Source of the DNA: Pseudomonadota bacterium
GTDB lineage: Bacteria > Pseudomonadota > Gammaproteobacteria > Ga0077536
DNA: 35,026 bases
NCBI GenBank assembly: GCA_027618655.1
Contig: JAQCEL010000015.1
Location: forward strand, 1 to 35,026
Direction: 5' to 3'
Part shown: piece by piece, positions 10,535 to 23,657 of the stretch
Layout: each line of letters starts with the position of its first letter
Numbering within the stretch: position 1 is the first letter of the stretch
Position numbers and translations under genes: made by a program
Notes under the pieces: generated by a model
Databases searched by the model: none
What the model was told of the DNA's origin: nothing
What the model saw: only the letters and a program-made list of their open reading frames with translations

Positions 10535-10559
10535 GAATTAAATATACTGTCCCAGAAAT
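10535..10559 (+). repeat. RAYT-associated repeat, copy a (forward)
   Basis: GAATTAAATATACTGTCCC followed by AGAAAT. It matches the copies at the transposase borders with one mismatch over 24 bases and lies upstream of the MFS gene, inverted relative to copy b. Confidence 0.8.
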
Positions 10560-10774
10560 CCGTTGTGCATATACTCGGCAGATGGGCAGTAATTCAAAAA
10601 TGTGTGATCAATGTGCGTACGCTGGCGAGTACGGCTATATTGTCACGCGACGGACACACGGATCCGTTTACTCACCATTTGATTGCTCAGGATCAGAATT
10701 GGTCTGCAAGCATTTAAGAAACTCCCCCTCAAGCGGCGGCGCCGCGCAGTTGTACATCCGCTAGCCGGCCTGCG

Positions 10775-12001
10775 ATGTTTTACGGCTGGGTGATTGTTGC
10801 GAGCACGTTCGTCGTGATGATGACGGCCTACGGCGTGCAATATACCTTTGGCGTGATGATGCCAGCCATCCAGGCGGAGACGGGTTGGAACCGCGAAGTA
10901 CTGGCTGGGGCGTTCGCGATTTACGCGTTTTCCTATGGCATGCTCGGCATGCTGACAGGACGGCTGACGGATCGCTTCGGCCCGCGCCCTGTGATTGCGA
11001 CTGGCGGCCTCTTGCTTCTCGTCGGCTATTTGATGCTGAGTCGCGCGACGTCGGTGTTGCAGCTCTACGTGGCGCTATCCGGGATCTGCGCGTGCGGCAT
11101 GAGTGCTGCGTTCGTGCCGTGTAGCGCCACTGTCATCCGCTGGTTTGTGCGCTATCGCGGTCGTGCGCTCGGCATCACCATGATGGGCGCAAGCGCTGGC
11201 AACGTCGTCACACCAATCCTCGCCGCCTATATGATCAACGCCTTCGGTTGGCGTGCGACCTATGCATGGATGGGGGTGATCGGCGGCATCGTCATTATCG
11301 CTGCCGCGCTATTTGTCCGCCGTGAGCCGTCCGACCTTGGACTCGAGCCGGATGGGCGCGATCTCAAGCTTGCGCGCGATAGCCTGAGCGCGACATCCGA
11401 GTCGCCTAAGTTGGAAGACTCCTGGACGCTCGCCGAGGCGCAACGTACCGGCGCCTTCTGGTTACTCACTGCGATGTTTTTCTTGACGTGGCTAGTCGTG
11501 TTTCTGCCCATGGTCCACCTCACGCCATACGCCATCGATTTAGGCATCGATCCGATCCGCGCATCGATTGTTCTCGCCGGTGTCGGGGTCGGCGGCGTCT
11601 TAGGTCGTCCGTTGGTTGGCATGGTGTCCGATAAGGTCAGTCGACTGCCCGCGCTCGCCTTCGTGTTTTTGTGCCAGGCAGCCGTGTTTGCTGCGCTACC
11701 CTTTTGCGAACATTGGCTCGCCCTGACCCTGCTCGGCGCCATTTTTGGCTTCGCCTATGGCGGTGGCACGACCTTGTTCGCGGCTGTCGTCGGAGATTTT
11801 TATGGGCCGGCTGCGGTCGGGTCGATCGTTGGGTTTGTGTTTGCTATCGCCGGTTCCTCGTCCGCCTTTGGCCCGTGGTTCGCAGGTTATATCGTCGAGC
11901 GCACGGGCAGTTACGACGTTGCCTTCTGGTTCAGCGCGCTGGCGAACGGGCTCGCCTTCTTGCTCGTCGGCTTTTTACGCCGGCCTGAACGGCCCATATA
12001 A
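10775..12001 (+). CDS. Major facilitator superfamily transporter (oxalate/formate or monocarboxylate-type)
   Basis: A 408-residue, 12-helix inner-membrane carrier. The N-terminus FYGWVIVASTFVVMM and the loop 2-3 signature GRLTDRFGPR (62-71) are typical of the OFA / monocarboxylate-porter-like MFS group. A hydrophilic central loop (about residues 185-215) separates two six-helix halves. It probably moves an organic anion, either substrate uptake or product export, but the substrate is unknown. It is flanked by inverted copies of the RAYT repeat and followed, past the transposase, by the thiolase-like gene on the same strand, so the two may once have formed one operon. Confidence 0.9.
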   Translation: MFYGWVIVASTFVVMMTAYGVQYTFGVMMPAIQAETGWNREVLAGAFAIYAFSYGMLGMLTGRLTDRFGPRPVIATGGLLLLVGYLMLSRATSVLQLYVALSGICACGMSAAFVPCSATVIRWFVRYRGRALGITMMGASAGNVVTPILAAYMINAFGWRATYAWMGVIGGIVIIAAALFVRREPSDLGLEPDGRDLKLARDSLSATSESPKLEDSWTLAEAQRTGAFWLLTAMFFLTWLVVFLPMVHLTPYAIDLGIDPIRASIVLAGVGVGGVLGRPLVGMVSDKVSRLPALAFVFLCQAAVFAALPFCEHWLALTLLGAIFGFAYGGGTTLFAAVVGDFYGPAAVGSIVGFVFAIAGSSSAFGPWFAGYIVERTGSYDVAFWFSALANGLAFLLVGFLRRPERPI

Positions 12002-12016
12002 GTATTGGACAGCGTA

Positions 12017-12040
12017 ATTTCGGGGACAGTATATTTAATT
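12017..12040 (-). repeat. RAYT-associated repeat, copy b (inverted)
   Basis: The reverse complement is identical over all 24 bases to copy c at 12772-12795. The transposase stop codon (12039-12041) lies at its inner edge. Confidence 0.85.
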
Positions 12041-12705
12041 AAGATCCCGCGTGGGGTTTCGGTCCTCGCTTCGCAGGTTGCAACGGACGCTCCACCAATT
12101 GCTCGAGTGATTGAACAAACGCTTGATGCCCAAGCGGACGACCGGTACGAAGATGCTGCGAAATAGCTTGCGCAGTATCCAGTTCCACGGGCGTCTCAAT
12201 AAACGCGCGCCAATCCTTGATTCGACTAAGCATCGGCGCGACATCGACCAAATCGTCGTTTTGTTGCAACAGATGAGCTTGCGCACTCGACCACCGCCAC
12301 GCCGACGCTGAATCGCATAAACCTGCGGTCACGGGATTCGCTTCGACATAGCGTACGGTCGATTGCAAATAGGCTTCGTCCATTGGGTTTGAGAAAAAAC
12401 GTTCTTGCCACAAATGGCCACGCCAACCAAAACGTCGGTTGATCAGGTAACTGTAGCGACGATGAGCATCCGCAACGGCGCCGCGCAGCCCGTCTTCGCT
12501 TATAGGAACCATTACCAGGTGAACATGGTTCGGCATCAGGCAATATGCCCACACAAGCGTCCCGGTTTGCCGGCATGCTTTGGCCATTAATTGAATGTAG
12601 TCGCTATAGTCCTTATCGCAAAAAAAACGTTTGCTGCCGGCGATTACCGCGCTGCGTCACGTGATGCGGTGATCCTGGAATCACCACGCGTGCCATTCTG
12701 GCCAT
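12039..12705 (-). pseudogene. REP-associated tyrosine transposase (Y1_Tnp family), frameshifted
   Basis: A single-strand HUH transposase of the RAYT / Y1 group, which cuts and mobilises REP-like repeats. The downstream frame (12039-12587) contains the HUH motif in MPNHVHLV and the segment RYVEANPVTAGL, whose Tyr is the likely catalytic residue. The true start is the ATG at 12705 with a GGAGGTGA ribosome-binding site; it encodes 28 residues (IPGSPHHVTQRGNRRQQTFF). A run of eight Ts (plus strand A8 near 12620-12627) then shifts the frame into a quick stop. Removing one T restores CDKDYSDYIQLMAKA and a protein of about 221 residues. It is either inactivated, expressed by slippage on T8, or a base-call error. 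Confidence 0.85.
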
Positions 12706-12770
12706 GCCGTCACCTCCTTGTGATCAGCTATTCACTGTCGTGATAATAGCGAAGCTGCGGCCGTTTATGC

Positions 12771-12795
12771 GAATTAAATATACTGTCCCCGAAAT
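12771..12795 (+). repeat. RAYT-associated repeat, copy c (forward)
   Basis: GAATTAAATATACTGTCCC followed by CGAAAT. It forms the right end of the transposase unit and the first half of a tandem duplication with copy d. Confidence 0.85.
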
Positions 12796-12818
12796 AGACT
12801 AAGGAGCACAAGCGCGCT

Positions 12819-12852
12819 AATTAAATATACTGTCCCAAATATTAAGGAGCAC
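12819..12852 (+). repeat. RAYT-associated repeat, copy d, with duplicated ribosome-binding site
   Basis: AATTAAATATACTGTCCC, then AAAT and TAAGGAGCAC. The same order (repeat, short A-rich spacer, CTAAGGAGCAC) occurs at 12772-12809. The AAGGAG of copy d (12844-12849) is the ribosome-binding site of the thiolase-like gene. Confidence 0.8.
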
Positions 12853-12856
12853 GCCG

Positions 12857-14371
12857 ATGACGATGGATGAACGCACCCCAGTGATCGTTGGCGTCGCGCA
12901 GCTTGAGCAACGCGAGGACGATCCACATGTAGCGCGTGAGCCGCTCGCTTTGATGCTGGCCGCAGTGCGCGCTGCAGCCGCGGATTGCGGTAATCCGCGC
13001 ATCCTCGCCGAGGTCGACTCGGTCAGGGTGGTACGCGGTATGTGGGGTTATGGCAATCCAGCGCGCGCGTTGGCCGAGCAAATCGGTGTGCCGCGTGCCG
13101 AAACGGGTTTGACCTCGCTCGGCGGCAACTACGTTCAGTCACTAACGAATCGCAGTTTTCTCGACATTCAATCTGGTCGTCGCGAAGTCATTGTCGTGAC
13201 GGGCGCCGAGTGTGGTCGCACGCAAGCGCGCGCCAGCAAAGCAGGACTCGAACTCGATTGGAATCCGCTCGCCACCGCCCCAGGGACTTCACCCGTTGCA
13301 CGCGACAGTGGCGATCCTCCCGAGCTGTATCTCGGCAGCGACAAAGTGACCCGCCACGAAGCCGAACTCAAACGCGGTATAGAAAGGCCGATCCAGTTTT
13401 ATCCCATGTTCGAGATTGCACTGCGCCACGCCAACGGCGAATCCGTCGCGGCGCACCGCGAACGCATATCTCAACTCTGGGCTGGATTCAACAAGGTAGC
13501 AGTCGATAATCCGCACGCTTGGATCCGCACACCCATGAGCGCAGCACAGATCAGCGCACCATCACCGACGAATCGCGCCATCTCCTATCCATATACGAAG
13601 CTGATGAATTCTAACAACAGCGTCGACCAAGGTGCCGCGCTGATCCTGACCTCGGTCGGGCGCGCACGTCGTCTAGGTATCTCTGAAGAGCGCTGGGTCT
13701 ACCCGATTGCCGGCACCGAGGCTTGGGATCACATCACGGTCTCAGAGCGCGACAACTTGCATTCCTCACCCGCGATCCGATACGCCGCGACGAAGCTCTT
13801 CGAACTAGCCGACGTTGGTGTTGCCGATCTGGACTTGGTTGATCTCTACAGCTGCTTCCCGGTTGCCGTGCAAGTGGCAGCCAATGAGATCGGACTAAGC
13901 CAAGATCGCCCGCTCACGGTGACGGGCGGTCTTACATTCGCTGGTGGACCACTCAATAACTATGTCATGCACGCTGTCGCACGCACGGTAGAACTGCTCC
14001 GCGAACGACCCGGAAGCCGTGGATTAGTGAGCGCCAACGGCGGCCTGTTAACCAAACACGCACTGTGCCTGTACGCCAGCGAGCCTGCGCAAAAGCCATT
14101 CGACTGGGCGGATCTTCAGCCCGAAGTTGACGCCGGTTTTCGCCGCCAGGTGCTAGTGGATCACGACGGCGACGCGACGCTTGAAACTTATGTCGTTATG
14201 TACGGACCGAGCGGCGAACCACGCATCGCGCATTGCGCGTGCTTAACCCCAGACGGACAACGTACTTGGGCCAACGTGACTGATTACGATACGGTCTCGG
14301 CGATGGTCGAAGAGGAATTTTGCGGCCGCCCGGCGCGCATTGATGGTAATGGGGGATTGCGGTTCGCTTAA
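12857..14371 (+). CDS. Thiolase-like protein (type 1 with extra C-terminal domain)
   Basis: A 504-residue thiolase-fold protein resembling SCP2-type thiolases and thiolase-like protein type 1 (TLP1), which carries an added C-terminal OB-like domain (here about residues 415-500). The fold is seen in TPVIVGVAQ at the N-terminus, GYGNPARALAEQIG, DLYSCFPVAVQVA and VSANGGLLTKHA. The usual nucleophilic Cys loop reads SLGGNYVQSL (near 87-96) without Cys, and the usual GHP reads GGP (363-365). Normal thiolytic or condensing activity is therefore doubtful, and a CoA-ester binding or hydrolytic role is possible. The ATG at 12857 has AAGGAG seven bases upstream. Confidence 0.85.
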   Translation: MTMDERTPVIVGVAQLEQREDDPHVAREPLALMLAAVRAAAADCGNPRILAEVDSVRVVRGMWGYGNPARALAEQIGVPRAETGLTSLGGNYVQSLTNRSFLDIQSGRREVIVVTGAECGRTQARASKAGLELDWNPLATAPGTSPVARDSGDPPELYLGSDKVTRHEAELKRGIERPIQFYPMFEIALRHANGESVAAHRERISQLWAGFNKVAVDNPHAWIRTPMSAAQISAPSPTNRAISYPYTKLMNSNNSVDQGAALILTSVGRARRLGISEERWVYPIAGTEAWDHITVSERDNLHSSPAIRYAATKLFELADVGVADLDLVDLYSCFPVAVQVAANEIGLSQDRPLTVTGGLTFAGGPLNNYVMHAVARTVELLRERPGSRGLVSANGGLLTKHALCLYASEPAQKPFDWADLQPEVDAGFRRQVLVDHDGDATLETYVVMYGPSGEPRIAHCACLTPDGQRTWANVTDYDTVSAMVEEEFCGRPARIDGNGGLRFA

Positions 14372-23351: not shown

Positions 23352-23506
23352 ATTGGGGATCCAAGGATTCGTGGCTGCTTGTTCCACGGGTAGATTTTAA
23401 TCGACTGGTCGAGCGGCCTGCGCGAATTAGAAATTCGCCTTGATGGTCAACTTAGCAAACCGCTTCAACAGAAGCGGCGCGTCCCGCGCTATTGAACGGG
23501 TCAAAA

Positions 23507-23568
23507 GGGCCAGACTCGATTGAACGGAGGGACTGCACCCAGATGGTTTTTCAATCGAGTCTGACCCC
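23507..23568. repeat. Inverted-repeat unit, second REP-like family
   Basis: The left arm CAGACTCGATTGAA (within 23507-23524) pairs with the right arm TTCAATCGAGTCTG (within 23550-23568). The outer bases GGG(C) and (AC)CCC also nearly pair. The loop is about 25 bases. This word family resembles REP-type repeats scattered in proteobacterial genomes. Confidence 0.65.
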
Positions 23569-23590
23569 ATTGAACATGCTTGTTGTCTAA

Positions 23591-23657
23591 TTTCATGGGG
23601 GCAGTATATTGATTTACCCTCCCAACACCTGCGTTCGAATTAAATATACTGTCCCAC
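23591..23657. repeat. MITE-like pair of RAYT repeats
   Basis: The right copy GAATTAAATATACTGTCCC (23637-23655) is intact. The left copy, inverted, is diverged (GGGGGCAGTATATTGATTT, 23597-23615). Together they form a 67-base palindromic unit without a gene, as expected for a REP/BIME element mobilised in trans. Confidence 0.7.

Follow-up and report, generated by a model that had tools for sequence, protein, structure and literature searches.

The transposase gene and its inverted repeats

The window (the whole 35,026-nucleotide stretch of DNA analyzed here) carries on its minus strand a TIRYT-type Y1 transposase gene (12039-12705; Pfam Y1_Tnp, PF01797) with a one-base frameshift. The start is intact, as the earlier note had claimed: the ATG at 12703-12705 is preceded, with a spacer of 7 nt, by the Shine-Dalgarno sequence AAGGAGG (12713-12719, minus strand). 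From this ATG (12705), frame 0 reads MARMARVVIPGSPHHVTQRGNRRQQTFFLR and ends at a TAA at 12613-12615, giving an upstream frame (12613-12705, minus strand) of 30 codons plus TAA, in which 28 residues of the family are followed by Leu-Arg. The next frame is open at 12042-12638 (minus strand) and matched the query from residue 23 onward; query residues 1-29 were matched in the other frame, at 12619-12705. The catalytic-site residues are intact in the downstream frame, which contains HVH (HUH residues H60, 12525-12527, and H62, 12519-12521) and the catalytic Tyr119 (12348-12350).

The frame changes at codons 27-29, in a run of eight T within the gene (12620-12627, minus strand; A8 on the plus strand), where close relatives read Phe-Phe-(Cys or another residue) in one frame. 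The further claims, that 28 conserved residues precede a frame shift at the eight-T run and that taking one T away restores the family sequence, both held: frame 0 stops after Leu-Arg, the remainder lies in the next frame, and the read-through matches Y1_Tnp. This T8 is the sole run of at least 8 in the window and is in itself unremarkable, since 0.56 A/T runs of at least 8 are expected per mononucleotide shuffle of the window.

Pfam matched the transposase to Y1_Tnp only; the E value was 3.3e-13 with the read-through as query and 2.3e-10 with its 182-aa part. Alignments of relatives extended to query residues 208-221. Scored against NCBIfam NF047646 (REP-associated tyrosine transposase, equivalog), the read-through reached 67.3 bits and the intact relative L049 reached 66.7 bits, both short of the model's curated threshold of 80. 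The gene belongs to the TIR-associated tyrosine transposases (TIRYT; TnpA-Y1 subclass 2.1-like) as a broken member. TIRYTs and TIRtrons with GGGGWSAS repeats are described in passages of Di Nocera et al. (2013; PMC3733652), and 20 of 26 TIRYT examples from that work were placed in TnpA-Y1 subclass 2.1, according to a passage of Quentin et al. (2018; PMC6006769). With the class as these passages present it, the gene shares the motifs NHVH (N59-HVH62), WQ and Y---NP (Y119-VEANP124), flanking inverted repeats with GGGGACAG (consensus GGGGWSAS), and further repeat copies across the genome, some of them paired. It differs in being frameshifted, in its Y motif (YVEANP, compared with the listed YIELNP) and in its slightly shorter protein (221 aa, compared with a median of 238 aa). 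The conserved C-terminal HTH-like domain of the class was not among the Pfam matches. With the canonical RAYT or TnpA-REP of the E. coli type (4er8) the gene has the HUH/Y1 family in common, and its N-terminal region aligned with 4er8 from residue 18, a weak match (E 0.0023). In contrast to that type, which is associated with GT[AG]G REPs, the gene is flanked by repeats of the GGGGWSAS type, a comparison that extends to the repeats found only, and its read-through remained under the NF047646 cut-off.

The terminal inverted repeats form a perfect 24-nt pair, with one arm on the 3′ side of the transposase (12017-12040, plus strand), where 2 nt of it fall within the stop codon, and the other on the 5′ side (12772-12795, minus strand; 100% complementary). 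The GGGGACAG within them fits GGGGWSAS (a consensus taken from a passage of PMC3733652). When the genome was searched with the 18-nt core, allowing at most 2 mismatches, 14 sites were found, and the reversed pattern gave 0. Five of the 14 lie in the window and some of the others are paired (C216, C42). Besides the two arms, the copies in the window include a second direct copy 47 nt off (12819-12836, minus strand), which adjoins the ribosome-binding site of a thiolase-like gene, a copy upstream of an MFS gene (10536-10553, minus strand) and a copy at 23638-23655 (minus strand). To survey flanks, the best 80 of 395 loci were fetched and 5 were dropped for short flanks; inverted repeats of at least 12 nt flanked 50 of the 75 usable relatives' loci, compared with 1/75 in a non-complement control, and 44 of these 50 contained a GGGACA-type core. 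The record titles of the close relatives, again among the best 80 of 395, name several phyla. As the window's gene has 24-nt flanking repeats of the GGGGWSAS type and its relatives likewise have flanking repeats, the element belongs to a known kind, the TIRtrons, and the locus is better annotated as a TIRYT/TIRtron than as a generic IS200 transposase.

The eight-T site in homologous genes

No split was found at 134 aligned homologous sites (0/134), all of which run through in one frame. The sites comprised 108 of 109 relatives' loci (28 to 62% identity; L043 was without a site alignment) and 26 loci from a class-wide search. Among the relatives' loci, 80 were the best 80 of 395, a choice that favors intact genes, and among the 134, L020 and L049 represent one genome twice, as probably do the pairs L157/L059 and L160/L118. 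The class-wide search covered 369 genomes at E ≤1e-40, scored no more than 8 candidates in each without ranking by intactness, and returned 28 matches besides the window's. The match started at residue 1 in 27 of them and at residue 4 in the other; that of the window's copy starts at residue 23, and none of the 28 was split at residues 23-32 (0/28). These 28 consist of L024, L025 and the 26 loci above and are not independent of the 134. Of the two figures, 0/28 is the fairer, because the 134 alignments all span the site in one frame and thus favor unbroken sites.

The run itself is not conserved. Its length in other copies, which the earlier note had proposed to compare, varied from 2 to 8 T across the sites; the Phe-Phe stretch of close relatives contained at most 7 T, and the sole other T8 among the 134 sites (L171) is in frame. 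Phe was present at residue 27 in 85/85 close relatives and at residue 28 in 80/85, with differing codons. An in-frame stop lay at or beside the site in two of the 134, at residue 25 in L027, which also has a frame change near residues 56-63, and at residue 29 in L048. Elsewhere in the gene, in-frame stops were present in 5/28 class-wide matches (near residues 52, 75, 100, 138 and 175), so inactivation is common and scattered in this family, its copies being repeatedly inactivated at unrelated positions.

Of the three options the earlier note had offered (programmed slippage, fresh inactivation and assembly error), this census disfavors the first, leaves fresh inactivation as the favored one, and removes programmed slippage as a main reading. 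That T8 is a selected transcriptional slippage site, throttling the transposase with the help of a hairpin just upstream, is accordingly very improbable, although several published cases resemble it. An out-of-frame gfp was restored to ~10% by deletion slippage of E. coli RNA polymerase at T8, as described in part of PMC6260861; passages of Baranov et al. (PMC1088944) treat copies in radiodurans and Nostoc; and a nascent stem-loop 5′ of the slip site is reported for a Roseiflexus IS630 element in a section of PMC5009743. The window's gene is like these slippage-using IS elements, as far as those passages describe them, in having a homopolymer frameshift in a transposase and, like the Roseiflexus element, a 5′ hairpin. 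It differs in that the run and the split organization are unconserved among its sampled homologs, in its run (T8, compared with A9/A8 or T5C5) and in its transposase family. Selection against runs, moreover, is evident only at 9 in many genomes (PMC1088944).

The hairpin is real. It abuts T8; folded together with two T, the last 38 or 44 nt gave -13.0 kcal/mol, and when 66 nt upstream were folded, z was -2.44 and 3/200 shuffles were as stable. Judged by structure that ends beside the run, only 6/109 relatives were as stable, but 11/109 relatives, all unsplit, formed folds of equal or greater strength over these 62 nt. The window's hairpin is thus in the upper tail and within the family range, and because unsplit relatives fold as strongly, it is probably a by-product of the coding sequence; hairpin-stimulated slippage was set aside on these counts. 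A pattern scan for an intrinsic terminator at T8 found none there.

The frameshifted gene may plausibly still be leaky through slippage at T8, by analogy with published cases. In passages of Baranov et al. (PMC1088944), one-base gains in A runs are described that left genes not fully inactivated, and these pseudo-pseudogenes resemble the window's gene in that a one-base gain creates a slippage-prone A/T run and the lesion is perhaps partly bypassed; the published case, however, went from 8 to 9 A, and bypass in the window's gene is putative. No passage on IS200 or Y1 transposases was found in the available part of a frame-transition survey (PMC3711429). A very remote prospect is that T8 and its adjacent upstream hairpin might form a slippage valve, newly recruited in this lineage, that restricts the TIRYT to a few per cent of its full output. 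We know of no earlier such slippage control in HUH/Y1 transposases; if the valve reading were true, it would, to our knowledge, be the first. In annotation, the frameshift is best recorded as private, perhaps leaky, and not as a recoding signal.

Origin and age of the frameshift

The frameshift is probably private and of recent date: a T run encoding Phe-Phe would have gained one base, inactivating or strongly reducing a TIRYT. In the family, Phe-Phe is kept and the residue after it varies (Cys in this gene); the pair is spelt here with T-ending Phe codons, so that a T run exists at this place. Slippage during replication, taking the run from seven to eight T, would be the simplest source of the added base, and the frame would then shift after residue 28. 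The main product would be a 30-residue peptide, and for that reason transposase output is expected to be nil or greatly lowered. Slippage of the local RNA polymerase on T8, should it resemble that of the E. coli enzyme, would let a minority of transcripts encode the full protein. The nearest relatives are only ~62% identical (among the matches listed, the best 80 of 395), so the seven-T ancestor is reconstructed rather than observed. Fixation of the extra T is a candidate event, read from one assembly of one genome.

We infer the direction of the slip and also its recency, the latter from the state of the rest of the gene. At the 62 near-invariant positions (≥95% conserved), the read-through departs at 1 (Leu to Ile); 85 relatives had a mean of 1.22 departures at these positions, and 54/85 had at least one. 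As nothing else looks decayed, the lesion, if any, would be recent. The same absence of decay fits an error in the sequence or a still-used gene equally well.

A consensus or assembly error at the homopolymer, the real gene having seven T and being intact, is the main rival to a recent one-base gain, and we consider it rather unlikely but by no means negligible. The undecayed remainder of the transposase gene speaks for it, as does the state of the genome, a 327-contig assembly. Its plausibility was gauged from other homopolymers in a sample of 50 stretches (721,591 bases, ~16% of the genome; 9 of the stretches were fetched for repeat or transposase matches). With the setting at 120 nt and a score of 4, A/T runs of at least 6 that had coding sequence to either side stayed in frame in 181 cases and changed it in 6. 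Of these 6, 5 were apparent junctions of neighboring genes, and the sixth is taken as a real frameshift in another gene, the one in C93 described below. Evaluable A/T runs of at least 8 kept frame at every setting (5/5 at 120/4 and 6/6 at 75/2). A stricter earlier script, applied to all bases, gave 102 runs in the same frame and 1 shifted. Since runs rarely change frame in this ~16% sample, the assembly is not evidently prone to homopolymer frameshifts. The argument is weakened by the most permissive setting (75 nt with a score of 2), which gave 11 A/T runs with a changed frame and 183 with the frame kept; flagged runs were inspected singly at 120/4, 120/6 and 150/6, and the 11 at 75/2 stand as raw flags, as do L221, L239 and L243 (flagged at 75/4 only). 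The window's T8 falls outside this scoring, the gene start being just 78 nt upstream. A further 14 A/T runs of at least 8 were picked because they are contained in open frames of 200 aa or more and, having been chosen in that way, give no rate.

It is also very doubtful that the gene escapes the frameshift by starting internally. The ATG at 12585-12587 (minus strand; Met40) opens the 182-aa ORF (12039-12587), which retains HVH and Tyr, and could drive a functional shorter transposase from residue 40; it lies 25 nt past the upstream stop, so that reinitiation is conceivable. No Shine-Dalgarno sequence was seen at normal spacing before it, however, and the product would lack the first 39 residues, including near-invariant ones in 19-36, which belong to the N-terminal region aligning with TnpA-REP 4er8 from residue 18.

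Other copies and the surroundings of the element

Two more distant transposase copies in the window's genome are also broken. The copy in C297 (L147 4230-4906; 38% identical) changes frame between relatives' residues 142 and 154, and no long homopolymer was seen in that stretch; the copy in C226 (L004 1498-1611) matches the first 38 residues only. A weak match in C93 (34% over residues 91-149), situated in an open frame of 345 aa, seems more distant and is excluded from the copy count. By DNA comparison, the element was absent from the three other genomes of the same genus, and a scan of viral contigs for closer copies found no relative.

Elsewhere in C93, a luciferase-like monooxygenase gene changes frame at a seven-base homopolymer (L149 7630-7636). 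The downstream piece matches PF00296 (luciferase-like) and the upstream piece is without a Pfam match. The change is taken as a real frameshift within one gene, which also looks shortened against the usual pattern of the family; with both features, it is probably a pseudogene.

The thiolase-like gene has an orthologue in G009 (87% identical), upstream of which (L206 4329-4406, C9) lie a lone repeat and ~54 nt similar to the transposase leader, perhaps what is left of an older element. The leader similarity was equalled by 2/2000 shuffles and was picked after the fact, and for these reasons is no more than suggestive. No convincing transposase piece was found beside the G009 thiolase-like orthologue (best tblastn E 0.014, ~3 kb off), and an ancestral element at this site was rejected as a candidate.

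In the window, the stretch 12772-12861, which contains the repeat and the ribosome-binding site of the thiolase-like gene, appears as an imperfect 47-nt direct duplication; the equivalent place in G009 has one repeat copy only. Two oppositely oriented copies of the element's repeat enclose the MFS transporter gene (10775-12001), the whole spanning 10536-12040. The orthologue of this gene in G009 (83%) is on a different contig from the thiolase-like orthologue and has upstream of it a GGGACAG-type inverted pair, a different one, around an NN gap. A second type of inverted repeat, with 24-nt arms that are 88% complementary and 25 nt apart, occurs in the window at 23501-23573 with GGGGTCAGACTC; it is close to the GGGACAG repeat at 23638, and a different TIRYT may be its owner. 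At a contig end in C216 (L151 1-420), a cluster of three GGGACAG repeats precedes short tandem repeats of a CGTCCCCGAAACTC-like unit.
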